A DNA stretch of 64,000 nucleotides, taken from assembly GCA_013289825.1 (NCBI GenBank), contig JABCZF010000024.1, forward strand, positions 1 to 64,000, written 5' to 3'. The translations under genes were made by a program, and so were the position numbers. This document shows positions 5,771-64,000 of this stretch, one piece after another. Source of the DNA: Acidobacteriota bacterium. Lineage in GTDB: Bacteria > Acidobacteriota > Terriglobia > Acidiferrales > UBA7541. The notes beneath the pieces are model-generated. The model made no database searches. It saw only the letters and a list, made by a program, of their open reading frames with translations, and was not told where the DNA came from. The first letter of the stretch is position 1. Each line of letters begins with the position of its first letter.

Positions 5771-6090
5771 CCCTGCTCCACGCAGCCCTCCGGTAGTCAG
5801 GAAGGAGTGAGTTCGGACTTGCGCTCGTTGGAAGGGAGCTTCAGCATACATCTCGCGCTGCCCTCCAGACAAACTGAAAGTTACTGCTGAAGTGTCGGCA
5901 CCTTAAGGAATCTTAACTGGCACGCCCACGACCTGTGGCTGTTTCTGCGCCTAGCTGGGCTGAAAGACGAACGTACCGAGAATGTTGATCGCATAAATCG
6001 TCAATTCCGATCCTCTAATTCCGTGCGCGTTCCCACGGAAGTGCCGTCGAGTTGCTCAGATGGAGTGTGATCCGGCAAGCCTTGATGGTT

Positions 6091-46945: not shown

Positions 46946-48115
46946 TCACTTTTGCGGAGCAGGCGGAGCTACGGGAACCAGCAAGCCTTCGCGAATACGA
47001 TAGTCAATGTCGCGCCAGCGAATGCTTTTGCGGCCGAAACTGAGCAGCCAGATCAGCAAGGCCCACGCGTCCCAAAGCGGTACGAGCGCCATCTTTCGCC
47101 AGATACGCTTTTGCTTCATCCCCCAAACACCGATTAACCAGGTCATGGCAACGCGCACGCATGTGTATCCGCCGAGATAAAACAGTGCCACTTGCGGAGT
47201 GGGATGAACCGCCACCGCGGCCACTGACCACGCTAATCCTTGCGTAAAAATTAGTCCAAGGTGTCCCCACGGGCGCATGTGGCGCATTACCGTCATCCAG
47301 CGCAGGCGCTTAAAGAAAAATTCGCGCAAGGATCGAAAATCAGCGACCGTCTCCACGGCGTACGGCAAGAGCTCCACTTCAAAACCTTGTTCAGCAACAA
47401 GACGCCCGACAAGCAGATCATCCGCAGGGCGCCTTTCAATCGCGGTGTAGCCGCCGAATCCCGCGAGATGCTTTCTGGTGGTCACAATGGTCTGTCCGAA
47501 CGCAAACTTCACACCGTCCAGTTGCCGCGCCACCAAAATGCCCGGATAGAAGTCGCAAATCATACCGATAGACTGAAGCTTCTGGAGCAGCGTGTGCTCT
47601 TGCGTGGACACATACAGACACGTGACGGCACCCACTTTGGAATCGCGAAGAGGCGCGACCACCGAACGAAGATAGTCCGGCCGGACGCGCACGTCGCTGT
47701 CGTTTATGACCAGAACCTCGTTTTGTGCTTCGCTCACCAGCCTGGCCAGTTTCACCACTTTGTCGTTGGGCGCGGTATGACCGGAGACGTGGACTATTCG
47801 AATGCGCCGCTGCGGAAAATCGCGTTTCAGCTTTTCGATGACTTCCAGAACGGCCTCGTCACCGTCGCCGATGGCAAAAAGCAGCTCGTAGTCGGGATAG
47901 TCCTGTTTGCAGTAACTTGCGAAGTTTTCGTAAGCCTCGGCATCTAAGCCACGGATCGGTTTTAGATTGCTGACCGGGGGCGTGTAGTCCGAAGGCTGAC
48001 TCGGTTTTCTGGCTTGCCGGAAAAATCGCCACGAACTGTAAAGCGCAAGGAAGTAATATATGAAAGGAATGGCGGCCACGCCCAGGAAAACGTAAACGAG
48101 AACAGCTGTCGTCAT
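46946..48115 (-). CDS. hpnI: HpnI-like (GT21/ceramide glucosyltransferase-like) glycosyltransferase, paralog 1
   Basis: YENFASYCKQDYPDYELLFAIGDGDE; INDSDVRVRPDYLRSVVAPL; ADDLLVG; KRLRWMTVMRHMRPWG. Confidence 0.82.
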   Translation of the reverse strand: MTTAVLVYVFLGVAAIPFIYYFLALYSSWRFFRQARKPSQPSDYTPPVSNLKPIRGLDAEAYENFASYCKQDYPDYELLFAIGDGDEAVLEVIEKLKRDFPQRRIRIVHVSGHTAPNDKVVKLARLVSEAQNEVLVINDSDVRVRPDYLRSVVAPLRDSKVGAVTCLYVSTQEHTLLQKLQSIGMICDFYPGILVARQLDGVKFAFGQTIVTTRKHLAGFGGYTAIERRPADDLLVGRLVAEQGFEVELLPYAVETVADFRSLREFFFKRLRWMTVMRHMRPWGHLGLIFTQGLAWSVAAVAVHPTPQVALFYLGGYTCVRVAMTWLIGVWGMKQKRIWRKMALVPLWDAWALLIWLLSFGRKSIRWRDIDYRIREGLLVPVAPPAPQK

Positions 48116-49646: not shown

Positions 49647-50828
49647 GTGCTCTCAATAATTAGCTTGGCTATCCTCATTTTGGCGCTCGCTCCGTTGGCC
49701 TATTACCTTTTGTCGTTTTATTGCGTCCTGGAGTATTTCCAGGGGCTTCGCAGGCTGCCGCCTGTCAATCCTTCCTTTGTGCCTCCGGTGAGCATCGTCA
49801 AGCCCGTCCGCAACGTGGACCGTGAAGCCTATGAGAACTTCGCCAGCTTTTGCCGTTTGGATTATCCGAAGTACGAAATTGTCTTCGCCGTGGCCGATCG
49901 CGATGACCCGGTGATCCCGGTCATCCGAAAACTTCAGCAGTCTTTCCCCAAGTGCTCTATACGGCTCGTTACCGCGGTGGCGAACCTGGGTGCCAACAAC
50001 AAAGTGAATAACCTTTGCCAGTTGGTTCAGGAAGCCAAGCACGAGCTTATCGTTATGAGCGATAGCGACGTGCGCGTGGAAACCGACTATCTCCGCAACG
50101 TGGTGGCGCCCTTCTCGGATCCGCGAGTGGGAGTGGTTACTGCGCTCTACCGCGGCATCTCAGGTAGGGGCCTGGTCTCCGCGTTAGACGACCTCGGAAT
50201 GTACACCGATTCGGCGCCGGCAGCTTTGGTTGCGCGCAAACTCGAAGGCAAGATGCGGTTTGCCTTTGGATGGACGATGGCGACCACGAAGAAAGTTCTG
50301 TCGGAAATCGGCGGCTTTGAGTCCATGGTGAATCATCACTCGGACGACTTCGAGTTGGGCAACCGCATCTCGGAGTTGGGCTACCGGGTCGAGCTGATGC
50401 GAAAACCTGTAGACATGGTCCTTCCCGACGAAAGCTTTGGCGAATTTTTGAAGCATGAACTGCGATGGTCCATCGGCCTTCGGAACGTGCGTCCCGTGGG
50501 ATATGTCGGAATGTTGCTCACCCATGGGTTGCCGTGGACTCTTCTGGCCGTGGCGTTGGCCACTGCTTCGGGATGGGGAAGCGTCGCCATTGCTTACGCC
50601 GTCGCCTACTTGATTTTGCGTCTCGGAGTGGTTTGGACTACGGCCGTCTGGGGCCTCGGCGATTCTCAGATAGCGGGAAAACTGTGGTTGGTTCCATTGC
50701 ACGATGCCATCAGTTTTGTGGTCTGGGTTGGAGGTTTTTTCTCCAATAAGATCGTGTGGCGCGGCTCTGTCTATCGCGTCAGGAAGGGCTTGTTAATCCC
50801 CGAAGTGAGCGGGGGAGGGGCGCACTAA
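49647..50828 (+). CDS. hpnI: HpnI-like glycosyltransferase, paralog 2
   Basis: VSIVKPVRNVDREAYENFASFCRLDYPKYEIVFAVADRDDP; MSDSDVRVETDYLRNVVAPF; SDDFELG; HELRWSIGLRNVRPVG. Confidence 0.84.
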   Translation: MLSIISLAILILALAPLAYYLLSFYCVLEYFQGLRRLPPVNPSFVPPVSIVKPVRNVDREAYENFASFCRLDYPKYEIVFAVADRDDPVIPVIRKLQQSFPKCSIRLVTAVANLGANNKVNNLCQLVQEAKHELIVMSDSDVRVETDYLRNVVAPFSDPRVGVVTALYRGISGRGLVSALDDLGMYTDSAPAALVARKLEGKMRFAFGWTMATTKKVLSEIGGFESMVNHHSDDFELGNRISELGYRVELMRKPVDMVLPDESFGEFLKHELRWSIGLRNVRPVGYVGMLLTHGLPWTLLAVALATASGWGSVAIAYAVAYLILRLGVVWTTAVWGLGDSQIAGKLWLVPLHDAISFVVWVGGFFSNKIVWRGSVYRVRKGLLIPEVSGGGAH

Positions 50829-51046: not shown

Positions 51047-52246
51047 GTGACGATTTTTCATTCAGGATGGCGCGATACGGTGCTTCTGCTGGCGGCGGCG
51101 CCACTCGCTTATTACCTCGCGGCTACATTTGCCGCCTGGCGCTTCTTTCGCCGCGCGCGCAGGCACAAGTTGCGAAACTACACTCCGGGCGTGAGCTTGC
51201 TGAAACCGGTCCGAGACGTGGATTTCGGCACTTATGAAAATTATTCGAGCTTCTGCCGCCAGGATTACCCCGACTATGAAATTCTCTTTGCTGTGAATGA
51301 CGCCTCAGATCCGGCCGTTCCGCTCATCCGCCGCTTGATCGCCGAATTTCCCGCCCGCCAGATTCGTCTGCTTGTTGGCGCGGACAATTTGGGGGCGAAT
51401 CGCAAGGTCAACAAGCTCGCACGGCTCTCTCGTGAAGCGCAGCACGAAATCCTGGTCCTCACGGATGGGGATGTTCGCGTCGGTCCAAACTATTTGCGCG
51501 AAGTCGTCGCTCCCTTCGTCGACGAAAGCACGGGCGCGGTGACCTGTTTCTATCGCGGCATCGCCGAGAAAAATCTTGGCGCAGAGCTGGAAGCCGTCGG
51601 CGCATCCAGTGATTTTTTCGCGGGCGTGCTGATGGCGGAGTTGACCGAGGGCATCAATTTTGCTCTCGGCGCTTCCATCGTCACCACCAAGCGCTGGCTC
51701 TCCAAAATCGGCGGTTTTGAGTCGATCGCAGGCCTGCTTGCAGACGACTACGAACTGGGTCTGCGCATCGCCAATGCCGGCGGACGCGTTCTTCTTTCGC
51801 GTGAGTCCGTCTGGACCATGTACGCCGCGCAAACCGCCAAGGGCTTCTGGGAGCATCAGCTGCGTTGGGCGAGGACCGTTCGTCTCTGCCGCCCGCTCTC
51901 TTATTTCGCGCTGATCTTTACGCTCGGCCTTCCGTGGTCACTGTTGGCGGCGTTTGTGGCCCCGACGAAGTGGATCGCCGCCGCCTACTTGCTGGCCTAC
52001 CTTGTGTTGCGGCACGTCATGGCTTGGACCGTGGGCGTCTGGGGAGTCGGCGATGAGGTGCTTCGCCGCAAACTCTGGCTCGTACCGCTGCGCGACGCGC
52101 TTTATTCGGCCGTCTGGCTCGCGAGCTTCGCTTCCAACCGCATCACCTGGGGCGGTCAGGAGTTCACCATGCACAAAGGTCAAATGGTACCCGAGGCAGC
52201 ATCGGGAGAAGCGAATTCGACTCCAGCCACTTCCGCTCGCGGTTGA
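51047..52246 (+). CDS. hpnI: HpnI-like glycosyltransferase, paralog 3
   Basis: VSLLKPVRDVDFGTYENYSSFCRQDYPDYEILFAVNDASDP; LTDGDVRVGPNYLREVVAPF; ADDYELG; HQLRWARTVRLCRPLS. Confidence 0.84.
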   Translation: MTIFHSGWRDTVLLLAAAPLAYYLAATFAAWRFFRRARRHKLRNYTPGVSLLKPVRDVDFGTYENYSSFCRQDYPDYEILFAVNDASDPAVPLIRRLIAEFPARQIRLLVGADNLGANRKVNKLARLSREAQHEILVLTDGDVRVGPNYLREVVAPFVDESTGAVTCFYRGIAEKNLGAELEAVGASSDFFAGVLMAELTEGINFALGASIVTTKRWLSKIGGFESIAGLLADDYELGLRIANAGGRVLLSRESVWTMYAAQTAKGFWEHQLRWARTVRLCRPLSYFALIFTLGLPWSLLAAFVAPTKWIAAAYLLAYLVLRHVMAWTVGVWGVGDEVLRRKLWLVPLRDALYSAVWLASFASNRITWGGQEFTMHKGQMVPEAASGEANSTPATSARG

Positions 52247-52339
52247 CGCCCCAGCGAATCCCGATTAAATTAGATAAGAAGAATCGTGGCCCTCCCGAGC
52301 CTCGGGATCCTGCCGCGGTTTCTTTTTCCTCCCATCGGC

Positions 52340-52379
52340 TGGGAGATCGTCCAATTGGTAGGACTCCAGACTCTGAATA
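52340..52379 (+). tRNA. 5' half of a tRNA-Gln(CTG) gene, truncated at the anticodon loop/stem
   Basis: TGGGAGATCGTCCAATTGGTAGGACTCCAGACTCTGAAT: acceptor 5' strand, D-arm, anticodon stem 5' strand and CTG anticodon; no matching 3' half follows. Confidence 0.7.
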
Positions 52380-52806
52380 TGAATCAAATCGTGAGATAAA
52401 CCGTTTGAACCGTTGCACTTACGATTAAAGCCGAACCCTCCAAATTGCCCCTCAGATTGACCCACCATTTGTCCGCTCGGGGAACGTGTCCCAGCAACGA
52501 ACACCAAACCTTACCTCCGCTAGCACTAGCAACACTGAAACTTGCGGCGTAGAAGATCCGGACCAGCGCCAGGGCTGATCCGATTGCGATAAAGGCGACC
52601 AAGGCGATCCGAAGCCACTTTTCTTCCTGATACGTCCGTAGCCATTAGCGAACAGGCGTTTTCAAAAGGACTTAGAAACGATTAGGCAGCGGATTCAAGT
52701 AGGGCTGCGGAGAATTTCTAGGTGTAGTCGGAAGACGCGACGTAGCAAACGTAGCAAAGAAAAACGCCGCGTAGAATCTCGATGTAATCAGCCGGGTTGC
52801 CGCTGA

Positions 52807-53880
52807 CTAGTTCGACGTTCCCGCTTCCCCTCCATCCTTTCTCCACGGGTACCCGCGTCCGATTTGAAGCCAGATAAGCCCGTCTGGAGAACCTGGAGGC
52901 AAGTCGTATTTTCGTCTAACTGAAAAGACGTTGCCCATGTCGTTCATAAAAGTTAGTTCTCTCGGACTGCCTTCTTTGGAACTGCCTTCATTCGCCATGT
53001 GGACGACGATTGCATCATTCACGGAGCCGTCCAGAATTTCTTCAACGGGCGCAGCGGAGTTATACGGAGTCTCGACATCGCAGAAATCTCCGGCAAAATC
53101 CCGCAGGATGGAAAGAACTTCTCTGTTTTCTTGAGGAGCCGTTAGTCGAATCAGGCATTTCTTATTCGGCGTCAACGCCGAAAGGTTCTTAAAGACGTGG
53201 AGCGTATTCGTGAAACCGGGATACTGAGAGTCTTGCGTTGAAAGCGCATAACGATGCCTAGTCGGAATCCAACGCGGCGCGGTCAGATACAGCACACCGA
53301 CGAGTATTATACCAAGCACGCTCAAGCCCAAAATCGCAAACCCCTTGTGACTTACCGCTTGCTCTAGCTTCAAAGTCCTCTTGTGAATCAGCCACGGGAC
53401 CCGAAAGAGATCAGTAATCGCGAAAATCGCAATCCCGAGTAGAGTTCCCGCTAAGGCATTCTTCGCATTCGTCCATAAGTCTTGGTGCAACAGAAAGCCG
53501 ACGATCGCACCTACGCTTCCAGCCGCCAGTTTCGGCTTCCATCTTTGATAGAACTCCATTCCGAACTGCCCGAAGAAATTCCCATAATACGATTTCCACT
53601 TTTCTTCCCGGCTTCTGTTACGAATACCTTCTCTTCCGAGCGGAGTGATCTCAAGATTTACAATGGCCTCAAGTGTTCCTCGTGCCCCCGTCCGGTAGGT
53701 TTTACCGTCAACAAATCGCATTTTGTACAGCGCATCAAGAGCAAGCGACCACTCCTTATCCGGTACCTCAGCAAAATCGGGCACACGGGTTTTCAAGTCG
53801 CGAGACGAAACTTTGGTGGGAAATGCTTCCTCCAAAGCCGAAAGAATCTTTTGCGCAAGAGACTCGCTATAAGCAGGCAA
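52807..53880 (-). CDS. Hypothetical membrane protein: possible N-terminal winged-helix-like region, two or three TM segments, C-terminal uncharacterised domain
   Basis: Single long ORF; N-terminal helical KILSALEEAFPTKVSSRDLKTRVPDF..., TM segments GSVGAIVGFLLHQ and GFAILGLSVLGIILVGVLYL. Confidence 0.65.
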   Translation of the reverse strand: MPAYSESLAQKILSALEEAFPTKVSSRDLKTRVPDFAEVPDKEWSLALDALYKMRFVDGKTYRTGARGTLEAIVNLEITPLGREGIRNRSREEKWKSYYGNFFGQFGMEFYQRWKPKLAAGSVGAIVGFLLHQDLWTNAKNALAGTLLGIAIFAITDLFRVPWLIHKRTLKLEQAVSHKGFAILGLSVLGIILVGVLYLTAPRWIPTRHRYALSTQDSQYPGFTNTLHVFKNLSALTPNKKCLIRLTAPQENREVLSILRDFAGDFCDVETPYNSAAPVEEILDGSVNDAIVVHMANEGSSKEGSPRELTFMNDMGNVFSVRRKYDLPPGSPDGLIWLQIGRGYPWRKDGGEAGTSN

Positions 53881-53954
53881 TGTTTTTGCTCGGATACCCT
53901 AAAGGCTCCATCAATGTTAGCAGAAATGTGTGAGGTGCTCTCCGACACATCAAG

Positions 53955-54016
53955 TGGCCTTAGGGAACGGTCTGCAAAACTATCACTCGTCGGTTCGAAT
54001 CCGAGCCGCGCCTCCA
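53955..54016 (+). tRNA. tRNA-Cys-like remnant (3' ~60 nt, GCA anticodon, encoded CCA; 5' acceptor strand missing)
   Basis: AGTGGCCTTAGGGAACGGTCTGCAAAACTATCACTCGTCGGTTCGAATCCGAGCCGCGCCTCCA; CCGCGCC acceptor 3' strand has no GGCGCGG partner upstream. Confidence 0.65.
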
Positions 54017-54032
54017 TATCCCGAAAAACGGC

Positions 54033-54100
54033 TCCTGGAAAGAGGCGTTGGTGGCCTGCGAAGCCGACCTTAGCGGGTTCGAGTCCCGCCGCCACCTCCG
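54033..54100 (+). tRNA. Second tRNA-like remnant (Cys-like; anticodon loop CTGCGAA; 5' acceptor strand missing)
   Basis: GGCTCCTGGAAAGAGGCGTTGGTGGCCTGCGAAGCCGACCTTAGCGGGTTCGAGTCCCGCCGCCACCTCCG; T-arm GCGGG-TTCGAGT-CCCGC is perfect; CGCCACC lacks its 5' GGTGGCG partner. Confidence 0.55.
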
Positions 54101-54116
54101 CCTTCCTGAGCTTCCA

Positions 54117-55532
54117 TCACGGTGGCGGAAGGGTCAGTGGTTTTTTTGAAACCCTGGTAAAGGCGCATGGCTTGGCATCACCGGCTTTGTGTTTGAAGCT
54201 GAAGGGAGCGCAATCGTCTGGACTGATGCCTTCAGGGCTTTTTGCGCCAACCCAAAGCACAATATCGTCGGGCACTTCTGGGTCAAGCGTCACATTTTTC
54301 CTATGCTTAATTGCGGCCTTGGCGAAGCCATCTCGTATCGCTGCGATTTCCGGTTTCATTACACCGAGCGACCCATTCGCGGAAAGTTGCACGTCAATCA
54401 TCGACTCGTAGAAGGGCTCAACGCGGTTGGGACCGATTACTCTCCATCCCGCTGAAGTGAAAACCTTTTTGAACTCTTGAGCATAGCTCCACGTGTTCCC
54501 CCCGCTCGAAGCCATTATTAGAATCTTGTGGCCAGGATACTTCGACAGTTCAGCCTCTATTTGCGACCGCTGCCACTCTGACAAGTGCCGTGTGTCTGGC
54601 AGGGTTTCGGAACCGGGCTGCGGGGTCGGCGCGTCTTCCCTCATTATTGTCAGGGAGCCGTCTGGCAACTGCACGGTATGAGCGGGCGGCTGAAGCCTAT
54701 CCTCAAATTCGAGTGGAATCTTCATCCACCTGTCGCAAGATTGCTTTGAATTCTCAGCGATGTGGTAGCTAGTCGGCAGAAGGCTGTCCCGACATTGGAT
54801 CACTGGTCTACGCAAACCATCGACACTCACCTGCACGGCATACTGCAGCACTTTATGAGTTGCGCTCACTATCAAATGCTGAACGGCCCGTGGGTTTCCA
54901 AAGGATGCGATTGTGATTGTGTAATCTTCATCCCATGGTGTTGATGGGGCAAACCAGAAATATTGCAGCGTTATAAGATTTGACGGTGTGGCGTCAATTT
55001 CAGCAAATTTTGCAACTACGGCGACACCGGACTTGTTGTCGCGCAGTTCTATCTCCACGTTGCTTGGAGTTCGCGGCCCTTCATGTATCACAAAAAAGGC
55101 ACGCCGTTCTCCGTCGATCAAATCGCGAGTCGGAGCAACATATAAATACACAGGCTGCATGACTGACCAGATTGAACTAGCCGCGAAATACAAGAGCGTC
55201 ATGCTTGCTACGGCAGTTGTGCCAAGGCGTGCAATTCTAGGCCAACTTCTGTCAAAGGACCAACGCAAAAACAGGCGCGCCAAGAAGAAAAACGCACAAA
55301 TCCATAACACCCAAGCAACAGCGATACTCCAGGGTCTTTCCTCAGGCACGATGTAGGTCCACGGGATATGTACCAGCGAGATGACAAACGCCCAAAAAAG
55401 GTCGCTGCCATATCTCTTTGTGCGTGGCGTGGATTCGCGCTGAGTCTTTAGAAGTTCTTTAGCGAGCTGACGCGCTTGTTCTCTCCGAACTCGACGACTC
55501 TCGCGGCCACCATAAGGCTGGTTCCTGGACAT
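54117..55532 (-). CDS. Hypothetical membrane protein with C-terminal uncharacterised domain similar in pattern to 52807-53880
   Basis: Several N-terminal TM segments; C-terminal KILIMASSGGNTWSYAQEFKKVFTSAGWRVIGPNRVEPFYESM...VPDDIVLWVGAKSPE. Confidence 0.68.
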   Translation of the reverse strand: MSRNQPYGGRESRRVRREQARQLAKELLKTQRESTPRTKRYGSDLFWAFVISLVHIPWTYIVPEERPWSIAVAWVLWICAFFFLARLFLRWSFDRSWPRIARLGTTAVASMTLLYFAASSIWSVMQPVYLYVAPTRDLIDGERRAFFVIHEGPRTPSNVEIELRDNKSGVAVVAKFAEIDATPSNLITLQYFWFAPSTPWDEDYTITIASFGNPRAVQHLIVSATHKVLQYAVQVSVDGLRRPVIQCRDSLLPTSYHIAENSKQSCDRWMKIPLEFEDRLQPPAHTVQLPDGSLTIMREDAPTPQPGSETLPDTRHLSEWQRSQIEAELSKYPGHKILIMASSGGNTWSYAQEFKKVFTSAGWRVIGPNRVEPFYESMIDVQLSANGSLGVMKPEIAAIRDGFAKAAIKHRKNVTLDPEVPDDIVLWVGAKSPEGISPDDCAPFSFKHKAGDAKPCAFTRVSKKPLTLPPP

Positions 55533-55921
55533 TTTTGTTAAGTTTACGACAATTAGCGTGTGTCTTTATTGCCCAAATGGAGCAGATTCACTAGAACACC
55601 CGCTTCCTGCACACCAATCAGGAGTCCACCGTGTAGAAATCCGTTCTACTCCGCGAATTACAAAAGGAAATCCGGCGTCACGACTTGTCTACGTTTGTGG
55701 ATGACCCGCCAAGTGCTGCGCAGGGCGGCAAAGGCGTCCCCGTGGCCGGTTGCCCTTGCTGTAGGAAACGATTCGGCACAATCGCCCAGTTTCTAGACCA
55801 TTTGACGATCGATGTTCTGCCCGAGATCCTCGACAAATTGTCGGCCGACAGAACGTGAGAAAAGGTGTTCCAAAAGTGTTCCATAATACGCTGAACGCCA
55901 GTAGGCGAGATAACGGTTCGT

Positions 55922-56590
55922 ATGCGGCACAGCCTATACAGATACTTCAGTGATCGCAGGTGGGCTGACGAGTTCCTTGACGGCAAAATGCGCTTTCGGT
56001 CGTTGGCCTACTTTCGCGACTATGAAAACGAAAGCGAAGACGAAAAGGTCAGGAAAGATGACAAGGAAGGCAATCTAGTTTTTGGCCCTCCAGAAGGCCT
56101 GCTTATAAACAATCAAACCCAGGGGACTTCTCGCATCCATCCTGGTTTCCGAATGGAATCAAGAACGAAGCAGGCCGAAATCTTTGTGCTTTGCGCGAGC
56201 TCTTGTTTCTCAGAGGAACTTCGCAGTCGATTCGGCGCGGTCGTGTGCGTAGAAATTCTTAAGATTGCAGCGTTTTGCAGGCGGATTCAACGAGCTCTCC
56301 CCCAGAATGCTACATTTTTTGCTGGGAAGGTTATTTACTACGACCCAGGCCAGGGGCCTGAGGAGCGCTGGGCGCTGCCCGATCTGATCGCAAGATCGAA
56401 GTTCAAAGGTTACGAGTGGCAGTATGAGTACAGGTTTCTCTTTTCTCTCACAGATGCACTCGCATTTGAAAATGCGACATACCAATTAGTTCGAGGCAAT
56501 CTTGGCGAAGCTCCGAAACCCGAAGAGCATCTGGACTTCCCAGTGCAAACGAAAAACCTTCGTGACATCTGCCGAATTCGCGAGTTCTAG
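55922..56590 (+). CDS. Hypothetical protein, DUF2971-like in N-terminal pattern (tentative)
   Basis: LYRYFSDRRWADEFLDGKMRFRSLAYFRDYENESEDEKVRKDDKEG. Confidence 0.55.
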   Translation: MRHSLYRYFSDRRWADEFLDGKMRFRSLAYFRDYENESEDEKVRKDDKEGNLVFGPPEGLLINNQTQGTSRIHPGFRMESRTKQAEIFVLCASSCFSEELRSRFGAVVCVEILKIAAFCRRIQRALPQNATFFAGKVIYYDPGQGPEERWALPDLIARSKFKGYEWQYEYRFLFSLTDALAFENATYQLVRGNLGEAPKPEEHLDFPVQTKNLRDICRIREF

Positions 56591-56890
56591 TTTTTCTGCC
56601 ATTATGGGGCTGAGGTAGTTTGCCAGATGAGCCCGTCCGACCTTTCCCTGGTGGGGGTGGATTCTGTGCGCTGCGGGCGCGGCGCTTGCAGCCAAATTCG
56701 CCTTTGGGTACGCCTGGAATAGCTGCTTGTCCATCGCGATGAAATAGCGAGTCGGCGAGCATACGCCGTTGGTTGGGTTGTGTCCATCGTGGTACTCATG
56801 AGCTGGAGCGCTAAAGAGGAGTGGACGGCCACCGGCGACACGCGTCCGCAACGCGAGCGAAGATCGACCAAGCGTTTGGTGACTAACAGA

Positions 56891-56948
56891 AGGTCAAAAA
56901 GCTGTCCTGTTTCGTACAGTATATTTTCCAGTTCTGTGCCAGCCTCAG
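56891..56948. repeat. Imperfect direct repeat copy 1 (about 58 bp)
   Basis: aggtcaaaaagctgtcctgtttcgtacagtatattttccagttctgtgccagcctcag; 51/58 identical, ungapped, to copy 2. Confidence 0.85.
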
Positions 56949-57230
56949 CGGGCTTGGCCATCTTGATGAGAGTGTCCAGGGTCAAGAACGAAATGGCCAA
57001 GCCTCGGCTTAGCCACGCGGTCTGGGTCAAGGGTTATCATTTCTAGTCCAAGTCTATCCACGGCCACGGGTAAGGGCAGTTCGTTGCCCGGCAACCCACT
57101 GCTCACTTGCCGTGCGTTCGCACTTCGGAAGTCTTTTCGCCCTTCTTGCCCGGTGGTCTGCCGTTTCTCTTTGGCGAGTACTGCTTCAGCCCTTCTTCAA
57201 AAGGAACGCCAAGATGTCACCCGAAGCGCA

Positions 57231-57288
57231 AGGGCAAAAAGCTGTACTGTTTCGCACAGTATAATTTCCAGTTATGTGCCATCCTTAG
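57231..57288. repeat. Imperfect direct repeat copy 2 (about 58 bp), just upstream of ORF 57295
   Basis: agggcaaaaagctgtactgtttcgcacagtataatttccagttatgtgccatccttag; offset 340 bp from copy 1; contains a TATAAT at 57260-57265. Confidence 0.85.
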
Positions 57289-57294
57289 TCAACC

Positions 57295-57657
57295 TTGGTC
57301 CATAAGCAAACGAAGAAACATCTTGATGAGAAGGCACTATCGAACGTCGCGCAGGAACTGGCGAAGCCCCGCCTAGCAGCATCCGTTCGGGAAGGTATTG
57401 AAAAAAGTCCCCTGACCGCTGATGCGAAGTTCCGAAAGGGAGAATTGCTCCACAACCACAACACCAATGAAGACGGCCTAGTCACAAGGGTGTACGAACT
57501 TGAGGGTGCGATTACCTACGAAGTTGCAGTGCCCGTTATACGCGATACTTGGGCTGGCAGCCACTACGTTTCGGATTGGGCTGAGAGTGTGTTAGAGCTT
57601 TCCCGCAATGCCAAGCTGAATTCTTCGGGCAACCCGCCAAGGGACTGGCCTTCTTAG
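57295..57657 (+). CDS. Small hypothetical protein
   Basis: 120-aa ORF HKQTKKHLDEKALSNVAQELAKPRLAASVREGIEKSPLTADAKF...; balanced composition. Confidence 0.5.
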   Translation: MVHKQTKKHLDEKALSNVAQELAKPRLAASVREGIEKSPLTADAKFRKGELLHNHNTNEDGLVTRVYELEGAITYEVAVPVIRDTWAGSHYVSDWAESVLELSRNAKLNSSGNPPRDWPS

Positions 57658-58456
57658 CGGCGTTTTGGAAACCGCTTAACAACACCACGCCGTTGGTTTT
57701 AATTCCTACAGTTACTGTTGAAGTACGATGGCTCTATTGCACTCACCACAACCCGCTGAGATAACCTCTTCACGCTGCGAGACGGCGCAAGGAGAACCCA
57801 AGTGAAAGCCTATTAGCCCAAAGCAGTTGGCGCTGTTCGTAGCAAGATGATGATGCAAGCTTCTTTCTGGAACCGCTGGTGGATTCGTTGCTCGCCAATG
57901 GATTGACTGCGGCACAAATTCAGGATGCGGTGGCCGCGTCAGCAAGCCGAGTTCTTCGCGTTTGCCTGTGAGACGCCGAGATGTAAAACTCGGCGCGGCC
58001 AAGATTGACGTGGAAGCACAGCGCATCGCCACGAAGCTCATTGGCCGGCTGACCGTGACCAATCCAGACGCGGTGCCATCAGTGTTCGATAGACGCTGGC
58101 TACCCGCTGCCGCTGCTGCTTGATGGTTTACACCGGGCCTACCGCTTGCAGTCTGCTTCGTGCTGCGACCGGTGCGCGGCAGATCACGGGCTGTGACGCA
58201 TTGCCCTGCAACAGCCGCTGGCACTGGCGCACGATCTGCGCAAGGTGACCGAGCTTTTTTTTTTCTCACGGCGGTCAAGTCATTTCCCTTGGATGGCGTC
58301 AATCGCGGAGAGCTTCCGGTCTACGTGTGGTTCTGTGCGCGGCATACCTGAATGCAGCACGCAACTCTTCCCGGAAGGGACGCCACAGGTAGGACAGCGG
58401 ACGGAGCAAACTTGTTTGGGCGTCAGGTCTTTCTTTTTCACTTTGGAACGCTACTC

Positions 58457-58501
58457 TAAGACATGTCGCAAAACTGTGCGATATGGAACAACTTGAGATA
58501 A
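58457..58501. repeat. 45-bp repeat copy A
   Basis: TAAGACATGTCGCAAAACTGTGCGATATGGAACAACTTGAGATAA. Confidence 0.75.
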
Positions 58502-58902
58502 AGCTAGCTTGATGACGCGCACCGTGAGACTTTTTACCACTAGGGAACGAAATTTGAAAGTCGACACGTCCCACAAGTCAACTGTTGGCTGAGAACTCGT
58601 GAACAACGAGTAACGCCAGACTGCTGGCAGTGCGTTCATCTACGTAATTTTGATTCTGTTGGTCGCCGGTTGCGGCAATTGCGCCTGCTCCACCGCCAAG
58701 TCGCACCGTAGCGTCTCCGCCTTCGCGTCCGAGCTTGACAGCAGAGGAACTTTGCTCGCCACCGAACATTGGGGAGTACACACGATCTGACTGTAAACGC
58801 ATGGCGGCCCTGAACTGCGCTGCACGGCATGTCAATCAGCGTCAGTATTTGCCCACGGCAAAAGAGGGAGTTCACACAAAGACCAGGGAGCAAGGCGCTA
58901 CA

Positions 58903-58947
58903 TAAGACATGTCGCAAAAAACTGAGCAATATTGCTCAACTAGATAA
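58903..58947. repeat. 45-bp repeat copy B, containing a perfect 16-bp palindrome
   Basis: TAAGACATGTCGCAAAAAACTGAGCAATATTGCTCAACTAGATAA; TGAGCAATATTGCTCA palindrome at 58923-58938. Confidence 0.75.
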
Positions 58948-59078
58948 GTCTATCCAGATGGCCAACATAGTGAGACAGTTGGTAGTCACCAACGGGCACC
59001 AACGAACCACAGGGAGCGTTTGGTGTGGTGTCCGCACGGAAATAGGTCAAGCGCGTTTGTACCAGAGCAAAGGCTACA

Positions 59079-59405
59079 GTGAAAGACAATCTAGCACGTT
59101 GCGCTGAGCAGCTTCGCAAAGCAGTTCGTTTTCTGGCCAACAGTTCCTGCGCACCCCGAGAGAAGTTGAGGGGGGCGTACGACACTGAGTTTGGAAGCAT
59201 TTGGCACGACGATTTTCCGAACGGCTCTTTGAAAGACGACTACCTAACCATCATAAGCTCGATAATCAAGTCTGATGAGCCTAAAGCTGCCGTAAACATC
59301 GCGGCTATGTCCGATGAACAAGCGCGGACGGTCATACAGCAAATCTGTTCGCTTTCTCAGGCCGCCGCGTACGTGCTGGGCAAACAGAGCAATTCCGAGC
59401 GGTAG
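59079..59405 (+). CDS. Small hypothetical protein
   Basis: KDNLARCAEQLRKAVRFLANSSCAPREKLRGAYDTEFGSIWHDDFPNG...; protein-like composition, tandem with 59420-59821. Confidence 0.55.
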   Translation: MKDNLARCAEQLRKAVRFLANSSCAPREKLRGAYDTEFGSIWHDDFPNGSLKDDYLTIISSIIKSDEPKAAVNIAAMSDEQARTVIQQICSLSQAAAYVLGKQSNSER

Positions 59406-59419
59406 GGGAGAACGCAGAC

Positions 59420-59821
59420 ATGAAAAAGGGAGTGAAGCTGAGAGAGTCTGTGCCGGTCGTAACTGAATACGAAGACGCTTCCGGTTTTCCCGATGAACAA
59501 AATGCCAATTCGTATTGCCGCGAAATGAACGGCTGGAGTTCTGGGTGGACAGTTGAAAAAGTGAAACTGTGTGGGGTGGACAAGTGGAGGGTTGTTTGGC
59601 TAGGAGAGCGTGCCCTTGACACGTGGGAAAAGAAGATCGGCAGCGTGACTTTGACCTATTCGACGGAAGGCACAGTGGGCGTTGGCTACAGTCACAATTG
59701 CGATTGCCGCCGAGGAGAATTGATGACAGGAACCATCACCCATACAACAGGCATACGGTTAACGCGGGATGAAATTGAGAAACTGCCGAGCTTTGCTGAA
59801 TGGGTGGCGCAGTACACCTGA
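59420..59821 (+). CDS. Small hypothetical protein
   Basis: MKKGVKLRESVPVVTEYEDASGFPDEQNANSYCREMNGWSSG...; ATG with close upstream gene. Confidence 0.55.
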   Translation: MKKGVKLRESVPVVTEYEDASGFPDEQNANSYCREMNGWSSGWTVEKVKLCGVDKWRVVWLGERALDTWEKKIGSVTLTYSTEGTVGVGYSHNCDCRRGELMTGTITHTTGIRLTRDEIEKLPSFAEWVAQYT

Positions 59822-60111
59822 GGCCGAATGCCTGAAAGGTGCAGAGCTATGTTACCGTCAGGAGTCTGAGGATTCGGCAATGCCCGCAACTAGAATACAT
59901 TTCAAACAGGTTCCCCTGACGGTTGTTAAGAAAATCATGAAATTGCAAGCCAAACAGAAGGAGAGTGCATCGCTTACGGCCAAGCAACGTTGATCGGGCT
60001 TTCCGAACGCGTGCTACTTTTGCAGGAAATTCCTGAGTTGTTTAGAACTTGGTCACTTCACCCCCACGGAAAGACCGGCCTTGTTAGACTGTTTCCTGGA
60101 GGGCCATTCAC

Positions 60112-60330
60112 ATGATTAAAACCGTACCGCGTTTGGTGCGTGCTGATGACTTCGTAGCAGAGACTTATGAGAAGATGGCTACCAACTTACCGCTATCTCA
60201 AACTGGACTAGCTGGTTATTATCGCAGGACCGCGCAAATGTTTAGGGAATCAACCAGACCGGGCATGATGCGAATATGGGAAGAAGAAAGAGTAGAATTT
60301 GTTGAGTCAGACTCTTCCTCTAAGCGTTGA
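60112..60330 (+). CDS. Small hypothetical protein
   Basis: MIKTVPRLVRADDFVAETYEKMATNLPLSQTGLAGYYRRTAQMFRESTRPGMMRIWEEERVEFVESDSSSKR. Confidence 0.45.
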   Translation: MIKTVPRLVRADDFVAETYEKMATNLPLSQTGLAGYYRRTAQMFRESTRPGMMRIWEEERVEFVESDSSSKR

Positions 60331-60589
60331 GCGCGCCCACGCCGTGTGGTCGTGCGGTGGCAAGCAGGCAAGCGCCGAAACTGTCCACGTAGAGATGCTC
60401 AGTTAACCCGCGTTCCGAACCGCTGAATGAAGGCTGTTATGGCCAATGGGCCACCATTCAAATCACCAGTAAATACGCGCCGATTCTCACTTTTCCCCTT
60501 TTCGGGGCTCTCCCTCAAAAAACCGTTTTGTCAACCGTTTGTCAACTTCACGATTGGCCGGATGGCACTACACTCAGGACGTTAAGACC

Positions 60590-60830
60590 CTTCGGGTGAA
60601 GCCCGCGCTGCCAAGGTGACCTGAGTGATCAAGAGGAATGATCCAGGAGGAGAAGATGGCCCCATGGATGTGAACCAAGGGACTCGGAAGTTTGGCGTGG
60701 AACAGACCTGCCAAAAAATACGAACGAGCGAAACCAACAAAGACGACTACGGCGACCCAAATCGTCATGGCTGCGAAAAAAATAGTCGTCAGCCCGTTTT
60801 GTAGTGAGTTGACTCCGTTGTGAAGGCTTC
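60590..60830 (-). pseudogene. Truncated/frameshifted N-terminal fragment of a multi-TM membrane protein
   Basis: Minus reading NGLTTIFFAAMTIWVAVVVFVGFARSYFLAGLFHAKLPSPLVHIHGAIFSSWI then frame change to LLITQVTLAA. Confidence 0.5.
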
Positions 60831-61199
60831 CGCGATGACGGGCTTGAATCCCTCCGCTCTAAACTCCGCAACATGACCGAAGCAGACTTGGTTCAGTTTG
60901 GAAAAACACTGCGCGATAAGTGGGACAAGTTTTTGAGCGCCGACCAGAAGAAAAATCTAATCGAGTTGAAAGAAGCTCGGGCGGAATGGAGACGGCGGCA
61001 TCCTAAGCGCCGCTGACTTCGGTGTCTTTGGTCGGCTTTTTCCGCAAATCCTCCAGCGCGTAGAGCCGATTCAGTTTCGGCAATGTCTTTTCTTGTAGCC
61101 TTGCCATTCCGCGAAACCCTCCGCGTGTCGCGTTTTCAGATGGCGCTTCGAATCGTGATAAAGTGGTGTAGTTATCAATAATTATGGGGAATGTAAGAA

Positions 61200-61580
61200 A
61201 TGGTTGATACAAAAGAGCGAGTCATTCTTGTTGTTGACGATAATCCAGACCATTGTAAAGGGTTTCGAGTTCTTTTGGAGAGTGGTGGATATTCTGTAGT
61301 CGAATGCAAATCGGGAAAAGAGGCATTGGCGGCGCTCGAAAAGAGGAAGTTCGATTTGATGACGCTCGACTTGAGCATGCCCGACGTGGATGGGTTCGAG
61401 GTATTACGGGCGGTTCGCTCCAAACATCCAAAACTCAAGGTGGTGGTGGTATCGGGCTTCCTCCAAGGGAGCATGAATCGGGTCGCCAAGAGGCTGGGAG
61501 CCGTTGTGACACTGGACAAGGACCTGGCTCCAGATTCGCTTCTGCCCGTTGTTGATGACCTCCTCAAGAATCCAGAGTGA
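61200..61580 (+). CDS. Single-domain response regulator (CheY-like receiver)
   Basis: RVILVVDDNPDHCKGFRVLLESGGYSVVEC; DLMTLDLSMPDVDGFEVLRAVR; LKVVVVSGF; TLDKDL (K). Confidence 0.92.
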   Translation: MVDTKERVILVVDDNPDHCKGFRVLLESGGYSVVECKSGKEALAALEKRKFDLMTLDLSMPDVDGFEVLRAVRSKHPKLKVVVVSGFLQGSMNRVAKRLGAVVTLDKDLAPDSLLPVVDDLLKNPE

Positions 61581-61683
61581 GTCACTATCAGTCTGGCTGG
61601 AGCCCCTGTAACGGGGCGTTTTGACCTGGCCGTACGTCTGGTGCATTATCTCCGGTTGCGATAAATTTCAAACCGGAGGAATC

Positions 61684-61923
61684 ATGAAAATTTTAGCAGC
61701 GATTAAACGCGAACAGAAAAAGCTCGAAAAGCAGTTAGGCAAGTTACAGCACCAATTGAATGGCGTTCGAGCCGCTGCTGAAGCGCTCGGTCATTCCGCG
61801 AGCAAAGAATTGAAAGTCGTTAAGAAGCGCGTGCTGTCCGCTGCGGCCAGGGCCAGGATTGGCAGAGCTACGAAGAAGCGGTGGGCGAAGTTTCGAGCGT
61901 TGAAGAAGAAAGTGGCGGGATGA
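61684..61923 (+). CDS. Small basic Lys/Ala-rich protein (histone-like/AT-hook-like composition)
   Basis: MKILAAIKREQKKLEKQLGKLQHQLNGVRAAAEALGHSASKELKVVKKRVLSAAARARIGRATKKRWAKFRALKKKVAG. Confidence 0.6.
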   Translation: MKILAAIKREQKKLEKQLGKLQHQLNGVRAAAEALGHSASKELKVVKKRVLSAAARARIGRATKKRWAKFRALKKKVAG

Positions 61924-62102
61924 GTCTGGCGTTCCAACTACACCAACATATCATTCCAATCGAACCGCCGACCAGACGCGTCGATGTGACCGCGAATCGC
62001 GCTACCGCATCGTGTAAGTGCTGAGGCGTGTAAGTGCTGAAGAGGATAAATTACTAATTAAGTGCTTGCGGCAAACGGAAGAGAGGGCCACAATGGATAG
62101 GC

Positions 62103-62318
62103 GTGGAAGAGGAGCCCCACATGGCGACAATTCCTCCGCAAGAACACATTTTGCTAGACCTGACCTGCCCCCACTGCCAGAGGATGAATTTGCTCGCGGT
62201 TGTTCCTACTCCAGGCGCGAGTACCTACGTTGAACGTGCAGTCGAGTGCGCCCATTGCAAGAAAACCTGGGAGGCGTCAATTCCTGGGACAGTCGAGGCC
62301 GGGCCGTTTCCCAAGTGA
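62103..62318 (+). CDS. Small zinc-ribbon protein
   Basis: LDLTCPHCQRMNLLAVV...AVECAHCKKTWEASIP (two CxxC). Confidence 0.55.
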   Translation: MEEEPHMATIPPQEHILLDLTCPHCQRMNLLAVVPTPGASTYVERAVECAHCKKTWEASIPGTVEAGPFPK

Positions 62319-62335
62319 TTCTCTATTGAATTCCT

Positions 62336-62557
62336 GTGAAGGACTTCTGCGAAAGACCGGGCGATATAGTCAGTGCCGTACGTTCCCTGCGCCGTGCGGG
62401 GATGCGCGTCGGCCTCCCCTACCAGACTGCCGAGGGTGTCATGTTCTTTCAACTTGACGACTACACGCTCACCGTAGCCCAGATTCTCGAATTGCTCGAT
62501 AAGAACCAACTTGACCGTGACGGCATTCGCGCACTGGTTGAGGCGCTGAAAAAATGA
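62336..62557 (+). CDS. Small hypothetical protein
   Basis: KDFCERPGDIVSAVRSLRRAGMRVGLPYQTAEGVMFFQLDDYTLTVAQILELLDKNQLDRDGIRALVEALKK; ATGA overlap with next ORF. Confidence 0.55.
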   Translation: MKDFCERPGDIVSAVRSLRRAGMRVGLPYQTAEGVMFFQLDDYTLTVAQILELLDKNQLDRDGIRALVEALKK

Positions 62558-62865
62558 AATACCGAAAACACAACAACCCAGCTCCGCAGACCCATCCATC
62601 TGCGTTTTCGGCAGTACCATCGTATCATCGCGTTCTGGTCAAGCATGGCCTGATTGAAAAGACCCTGTCGCTACCCGATGCGTATAAAGTGTTTTTGAAA
62701 GTGGGTGCTGACCCAGAAGTACAGAAACCCCGTCGCAAGGTAGAACACGGCAACAAGATGAAACACGTTCCCGCTTTGTATCTGGCCACGGCGATGGCTC
62801 TGCAAGGTATGACGAAGCAGAAGCTTGAATCTCTGAAATTGCGGATTGAAGAGAAACGGGCATGA
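62554..62865 (+). CDS. Small hypothetical protein
   Basis: 103-aa ORF, translationally coupled on both sides (ATGA overlaps). Confidence 0.5.
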   Translation: MKYRKHNNPAPQTHPSAFSAVPSYHRVLVKHGLIEKTLSLPDAYKVFLKVGADPEVQKPRRKVEHGNKMKHVPALYLATAMALQGMTKQKLESLKLRIEEKRA

Positions 62866-63026
62866 GCGCCCCCTTGCTGATCGGTGAGCGCTTGCGCAAG
62901 CTGCGCAAAGAAAAGAAACTCTCCCAGGGCGACATCGAAAAACGGACGGGCCTGCTTCGCGCTCACATCTCAATCTTGACCGTGGCGGAGCCGTGGTTGA
63001 AGATTACCGAGATTCACAGGAGATAA
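62862..63026 (+). pseudogene. Truncated XRE/Cro-family HTH protein (54 aa)
   Basis: MSAPLLIGERLRKLRKEKKLSQGDIEKRTGLLRAHIS matches an XRE HTH start but then diverges (ILTVAEPWLKITEIHRR*) where the recognition helix region should continue. Confidence 0.55.
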
Positions 63027-63030
63027 GCCA

Positions 63031-63420
63031 ATGCCCGAACAAAATGTCGCGTCTTGTCCTCAAGGGTGCTGTCGGTTTGTCAACGGTCAAGCTGTATCTG
63101 AGGATGAGTACAAGGCGGCTGCTCAGAATTTAGCGGCTGGGATTCAGAGTAGAGAAGCGCAGATTACATGCTTGAAAATCGAAGACAATAAAACCATCGC
63201 AAATGCTGTGGGCTTCTATTTCGGAAAGCCGGTACCCAACGCGGGCGAGCCGTTCTTTCCGCCGTCTTTCGAGATAGGCTCAGTAACGGCACAAAACTAT
63301 TGTGTTTACGATGTTAAGACGAATGCACGAATAGGAAGCGCACAAGTTGAACAGTTTAAGAAGTGGGAAGATACCCGGAAGAAACTAATTGAAAAGAAAA
63401 AGAGTGGCACTGCGAAGTAG
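63031..63420 (+). CDS. Small hypothetical protein
   Basis: MPEQNVASCPQGCCRFVNGQAVSEDEYKAAAQNLAAGIQSREAQ...; directly downstream of the HTH fragment. Confidence 0.5.
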   Translation: MPEQNVASCPQGCCRFVNGQAVSEDEYKAAAQNLAAGIQSREAQITCLKIEDNKTIANAVGFYFGKPVPNAGEPFFPPSFEIGSVTAQNYCVYDVKTNARIGSAQVEQFKKWEDTRKKLIEKKKSGTAK

Positions 63421-63622
63421 GGGAAACAAGCTACTGCGGTTATCGCGCATCTCAACCGCGAATCGGATATTTCGGTCTGGATGCGCAACTATGTCATAAT
63501 TTGACCTTGCTCGGATTTTCCAACATGGGACTGATTCCGCGTTGGCCGTTCTCAATTCCTTCATGAAAGCCGCACCCATTTTTCTGCTTGTTGTTCCACA
63601 TGATGCGACATCAACCGCAGAT

Positions 63623-63805
63623 TCAGTCGTCTTCCGCTAGTTTGTTTTTGAATTGAATGTCTGCTTCCCAACATTCATGCGAGCAATACCTATCGGAGCC
63701 GTCTTCAAGTGTGAGACCGAATACCGGACCATTTTCGACCGGCTCTAAATGCCTAGCTGGTTGCTGGTTACAGAATTCACAAACCCTGTCCGCCATTTCT
63801 TTCAC
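63623..63805 (-). CDS. Small zinc-finger-like protein
   Basis: MKEMADRVCEFCNQQPARHLEPVENGPVFGLTLEDGSDRYCSHECWEADIQ (CxxC...CxxxC). Confidence 0.45.
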   Translation of the reverse strand: MKEMADRVCEFCNQQPARHLEPVENGPVFGLTLEDGSDRYCSHECWEADIQFKNKLAEDD

Positions 63806-64000
63806 ACCTTTCCAAAATGCCTTCGTCTGCTCTGCTACTTCTCAAGCTCGCTGTCCGAAGATGACCTACTTATTTAAATTCTTGCAATGCAAACAGAGTC
63901 GATGCCCGCCTGTGCCCGCTCCCGTTTGTGTTTTGGAATGTCATTTCCGGACGGACACTTGCTATTGTTGTGATGCACCCATTTATTCGGATGCTTTTTG

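Follow-up and report, generated by a model that had tools for sequence, protein, structure and literature searches.

A tRNA-Gln(CTG) half at the left end of a genomic island in an Acidobacteriota genome, with the tRNA gene rebuilt at the far end in congeners

The DNA analysed here, called the window, comprises bases 1-64000 of contig C24 from an Acidobacteriota bacterium. Its source is a 4.5-Mb draft genome (G000; 56 contigs, 86.6% complete, 4.3% contamination), in which contig C24 ends at position 70211. The subject is a tRNA-Gln(CTG) gene that is cut at its anticodon loop and the genomic island that begins at the cut. The relatives used for comparison were Acidobacteria metagenome-assembled genomes, named here by G numbers; PMES01000119 carries the G035 contig and JABCYZ010000028 carries the G031 contig. 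The following features lie around the cut:

51047-52246, plus strand: gene for a glycosyltransferase of family 21 (Pfam PF13506, E 2e-42), the chromosomal left neighbour of tRNA-Gln(CTG), syntenic in many congeners
52243-52271, plus strand: candidate native promoter of the tRNA gene, read from the sequence (TTGACG, 17 nt, TAAATT)
52340-52378, plus strand: orphan 5' half of tRNA-Gln(CTG), one half of the attachment junction (39 of 39 bases as in the intact tRNA-Gln(CTG) of G031)
52379-52466, plus strand: conserved non-coding island end, common to G035 and G028 in a three-way alignment
52399-52416, plus strand: direct repeat AACCGTTTGAACCGTTGC, similar to an integrase arm-type site; in G035 and G031 a like motif stands inverted directly ahead of the integrase start
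52445-52463, plus strand: arm-type-like pair TTGCCCC/TTGACCC; like pairs occur in the integrase tail of the relatives, on the other side of the attachment core
52379-64000, no strand: island interior inside the window, delimited by composition (GC, guanine plus cytosine, 50-54%), running on toward the contig end at 70211

The sequence TGGGAGATCGTCCAATTGGTAGGACTCCAGACTCTGAAT, with which the intact tRNA-Gln(CTG) gene of G031 begins, is 39 bases long and identical to 52340-52378. The anticodon loop CTCTGAA occupies 52371-52377, with the anticodon CTG at 52373-52375. The match runs one base beyond the loop and then breaks off, and from 52379 onward neither the 3' strand of the anticodon stem nor a T arm or acceptor was found. 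ARAGORN called no tRNA in the 64-kb window, nor in the final 10 kb of contig C24. A hit to HOTAIRM1_3 over the tRNA half, obtained in an Rfam scan at a permissive threshold, was dismissed as a chance match. The tRNA half itself is not a chance match, because the wider stretch around it was matched in 40 of the 61 genomes searched and a short alignment ended in one genome after another at query position 1335 (window 52381).

In many congeners an intact tRNA-Gln(CTG) lies directly downstream of the same family-21 glycosyltransferase, which represents the empty site. The first-pass annotation of the window had counted an intact gene at this syntenic place in uninserted relatives against an island; as the empty site, it supports insertion. 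The abrupt change of gene content described in that annotation was borne out. Three related family-21 glycosyltransferase genes are clustered left of the tRNA (46946-48115 on the minus strand, 49647-50828 and 51047-52246 on the plus strand), the open reading frames (ORFs) right of the cut are mostly small and unclassified, and the GC content falls from 0.55-0.62 on the left to 0.50-0.54 on the right (about 57% to 52%, a step of roughly 5 points).

The same junction was present in two congeners. The tRNA half of G035 is cut at the same place and the 140 bp across its junction, tRNA half included, are 82% identical to the window; in G028 the same cut is followed by a homologous island end. A genomic island in tRNA-Gln(CTG) has its left attachment junction at 52340-52378, so that the first-pass annotation was correct both in its sequence and coordinates for a 5' half cut at the anticodon loop and in placing the left boundary of an integrated island there. 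Apart from these junctions, the conserved island end was also met in G015 (C105, L118:13795-13900) without a preceding tRNA half, which may reflect a secondary integration site, a rearrangement or decay.

The congeners also reveal the opposite end of such islands. On contig C37 of G035 an intact tRNA-Gln(CTG) begins 24 bp past the stop codon of an intact tyrosine integrase gene and runs in the same direction. The direct repeat between the two island ends of G035 measures 40 bp, made up of the 5' half of the tRNA and one further base, and ends just past the anticodon loop; the attachment site is thus the 5' half of the tRNA gene. This layout recurs on contig C142 of G028, where the integrase is decayed, and the right flank matches that of G013, whose glycosyltransferase and tRNA carry no insertion between them. 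G035 and G028 each hold one intact tRNA-Gln(CTG), located about 25 nt past the integrase gene or what is left of it. A whole arrangement on a single contig was found at the other glutamine tRNA in G024 (C78), where tRNA-Ser(GGA) is followed by a displaced 5' half at 2594, 3.2 kb of DNA and an intact tRNA-Gln(TTG) at 5838. This site is empty in the window's genome, with tRNA-Ser and tRNA-Gln 102 bp apart. The integrase preceding tRNA-Gln(TTG) in G031 is 81% identical to that of G035, and a footprint of the integrase tail precedes tRNA-Gln(CTG) in five congeners and tRNA-Gln(TTG) in four. The arrangements in G035, G028, G024 and G031 indicate that one integrase family uses both glutamine tRNA genes, with an attachment site that carries the 5' half. 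In G035 and G031 the integrase ORFs are whole, lie outside the attachment core and are not split by integration. Most of the more distant homologs of the integrase within the genus stand in the classic convergent order at the tRNA. A search of viral contigs found no such integrase, and phage records held only distant integrases with less than 30% identity among the matches listed.

The explanation that we consider very probable as a whole is that a tyrosine-integrase island entered tRNA-Gln(CTG), left the 5' half as an orphan and rebuilt the tRNA at its far end, restoration in the window's genome being assumed by analogy. The integrase would insert the island by strand exchange across the 7-bp anticodon loop, between the arms of the stem. 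The chromosomal 5' half would remain at the left end, and the island's own 5' half, located just after the integrase gene, would join the chromosomal 3' half to give a complete tRNA-Gln at the right end. Transcription of this rebuilt gene may start from the pattern TTGMCC-18-YATGAT at the 3' end of the integrase gene. A far end like that of the relatives probably exists in the window's genome and was left unassembled. Several observations weigh against this explanation. A search of G000 at E<=1e-30 did not recover the cognate integrase; the assembly, in which contig C24 stops at 70211, lacks the far end of the window's own island; and in both G035 and G028 the two island ends sit on different contigs. 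A chromosomal right flank in the window's genome, sought via G006, gave matches of 66-74% over short stretches that were not interpretable.

The first-pass annotation held that the tRNA was not restored and that loss of the CTG isoacceptor could be tolerated. A true destruction of the gene, with CAG read by tRNA-Gln(TTG) through wobble, draws on two facts: tRNA-Gln(TTG) is present in the window's genome, and neither a lone 3' half nor a second 5' half of tRNA-Gln(CTG) occurs anywhere in its assembly. The search for the missing half that the annotation proposed was negative, and its target has to be revised, since the expected far end is a complete tRNA beside an integrase and not a lone 3' half. 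Moreover, the missing 3' half says nothing on loss, because the genome is 86.6% complete, contig C24 ends at 70211 and the tRNA loci recovered with ARAGORN include no tRNA for Met, Phe, Asp, His or Ile either. Congeners with the same junction (G035, G028) possess the rebuilt gene at the other end, the island carrying the 5' half. Exactly one intact tRNA-Gln(CTG) was found in 29 of the 36 genus genomes searched, and 21 of the 24 near-complete ones keep the gene, which argues against its dispensability. We regard destruction of the tRNA as unlikely.

The island could also supply a whole tRNA gene of its own instead of rebuilding the interrupted one, a strategy shown in actinobacteriophages as tRNA-dependent lysogeny (PMC10865867), and the far part of the island, where such a gene might lie, is unseen. 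However, the attachment cores of those phages measure about 10 bp, whereas the repeat of the relatives extends over 40 bp and rebuilds the gene, and the 17.8 kb of island available contain no tRNA gene; a replacement tRNA is very improbable. That the assembly is chimeric here, or that the tRNA decayed at random without any integration, might be suspected in a draft of 56 contigs with 4.3% contamination, but is scarcely credible given the same break and homologous non-tRNA sequence in the assemblies of two other species, and since these independent assemblies share the junction an assembly artefact is very unlikely.

Returning to the integrated island with a rebuilt tRNA, both of its ends carry short repeats. 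The inverted counterpart of AACCGTTTGAACCGTTGC at the integrase start of G035 and G031 was equalled by 0 to 1 of 60 shuffles. A genus-wide search for the ACCGTT motif with one mismatch remained at chance level, with similar counts in the control, and each of the five matches with zero mismatches is located at an island end or an integrase start, which is partly due to how the pattern was built. We infer that the paired TTGMCCC and ACCGTT repeats on both sides are putative arm sites of the integrase.

As to the integrase gene recommended as a check by the first-pass annotation, the window's contig offers only a divergent tyrosine recombinase at C24:65880-66998, and a close homolog of the cognate integrase is absent. 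This recombinase was rejected as the cognate integrase, being no close relative of it (26% over 192 amino acids). It stands beside a gene of 147 amino acids (both within C24:65404-66998, just past the window), and the same pair in the same order occurs 2-3 kb from the integrase in the element of G031 (70% and 37% identity). Among 36 genomes the gene of 147 amino acids is restricted to the window's genome and G031. Together, recombinase and neighbour link the window's island to the G031 element.

A candidate native promoter, TTGACG-N17-TAAATT, occurs at the equivalent place in G028 as well. After integration it would stay upstream of the orphan half, and for this reason the rebuilt tRNA would need a promoter in the integrase tail. 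The last bases of the integrase gene precede the rebuilt tRNA-Gln in nine congeners. They contain a sigma70-like pattern of fixed spacing (TTG[AC]CC, 18 nt, [C/T]ATGAT) that overlaps the integrase stop codon, with the -10-like box [C/T]ATGAT in eight of the nine footprints and TGTAAT in the ninth. G024 still shows a stretch TTGGGC...TTTAAACT on the upstream side of its displaced half. When the two intact integrases of G035 and G031 were compared, identity was even along the gene (0.72-0.80). Set against an intact copy, the final 55 nt in G024, G018, G025 and G017 retained an identity of 0.64-0.71, while the remainder was at 0.41-0.51, no higher than for unrelated sequence. That the tail was kept after the gene was lost fits selection on a promoter. 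Weighing on the other side, the promoter is a match to a consensus only, a score that single sequences reach in 0.5-8.5% of shuffles; its copies are homologous to one another; and its -35 box overlaps an arm-like repeat. On this balance of sequence features, expression of the rebuilt tRNA from the candidate promoter at the integrase 3' end is about as probable as its opposite. The broader proposal is that the integrase 3' end doubles as a portable tRNA promoter, a piece of about 55 nt that the host would retain after decay or deletion of the island and that would permanently serve as promoter for its sole tRNA-Gln(CTG) or tRNA-Gln(TTG), the expression of a housekeeping tRNA having been handed to element DNA several times within one genus. 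We hold this proposal to be evenly balanced between true and false.

Islands of this polarity are known. The Islander database lists 159 islands with a 5' fragment and 3760 with a 3' fragment, 3919 in total (PMC4383910). Its 5'-fragment islands resemble the present ones in the tyrosine integrase, the crossover at the anticodon loop, the intact tRNA at one end and the displaced 5' fragment at the other. Here, the displaced 5' fragment was found at the island end in the window, G035, G028 and G024, the rebuilt intact tRNA at the other end and in the same orientation in G024 (on one contig), G035 and G028, and the cognate integrase adjoining the rebuilt tRNA in G035 and G031. The pTN3-type integrases of Thermococcales likewise use the 5' half of a tRNA as attachment site with the same polarity, and the tRNA is then expressed from the integrase promoter, a situation that the review describing it calls rare in bacteria (PMC8371274). 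These suicidal elements, however, split their own integrase gene on integration. In G035 and G031 the gene stands intact beside the tRNA, unlike that of the pTN3/SSV suicidal integrases, and the candidate promoter is located in the tail of the integrase gene. Classic 3'-half islands at anticodon loops share the place of crossover and the recombinase superfamily, but their polarity is opposite: the displaced piece is a 3' fragment, and the tRNA's own promoter stays with it. In phage tRNA-dependent lysogeny the integrase also cuts a tRNA gene, but there the phage tRNA replaces a gene that is not rebuilt, whereas the relatives studied here rebuild it and have a 40-bp core. The 5'-half polarity is documented but uncommon, and the present family shares it with an integrase that is not split. 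The literature searched described neither this integrase family nor the repeats and tail promoter that go with it.

In G035 (C37, L074:4035-5013) a second tyrosine recombinase (Pfam Phage_integrase) lies directly after the rebuilt tRNA-Gln(CTG) and convergent to it; it seems to be truncated, and an ORF resembling a reverse transcriptase comes next, so that elements appear to occupy both sides of the site. The tRNA-Gln(CTG) of G031 also hosts an apparent island of classic polarity, with a displaced 3' half that lies downstream of the intact gene at a distance of about 29.6 kb (C2:124702-124735 and C2:154317-154391) in which the anticodon CTG is changed to CTA. G033 has a distant integrase (36%; C49:55046-56253) ahead of an intact tRNA-Ile(GAT) and pointing the same way as that gene. 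The integrase stop codon is accompanied by TTGCGA-17-TAGAAT, and this may be another family built on the same plan. No displaced half turned up within 80 kb, and a complete 5'-type element at this tRNA-Ile was rejected for that reason.

The interior of the window's island carries the following cargo genes, taken from the ORF list and family searches:

52807-53880, minus strand: ORF of 357 amino acids, membrane-like by eye, no Pfam family
54117-55532, minus strand: ORF of 471 amino acids, no family found
55922-56590, plus strand: ORF of 222 amino acids, like phage family phrog_13198 of unknown function (E 6e-15)
61200-61580, plus strand: stand-alone response-regulator receiver domain (Pfam PF00072, E 7e-26)

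No defence family was detected among the island proteins tested, and 10 proteins tested gave no match to phage structural families. A direct repeat of 59 bp, with copies 88% identical and 340 bp apart, occurs at 56890-56948 and 57230-57288.

A broken tRNA at an island edge need not mean a lost tRNA, and the tempting reading of such a junction is corrected by the congeners. With most islands that target tRNA genes the host promoter stays where it was, whereas integration here parts the tRNA from its promoter, and as a consequence whether the integrant is viable should hinge on what the element provides. The island family thus offers a directly testable case of a mobile element that makes a housekeeping tRNA dependent on itself, and in the genomes that retain the integrase tail alone a host gene is found whose promoter appears to be the relic of a vanished element.
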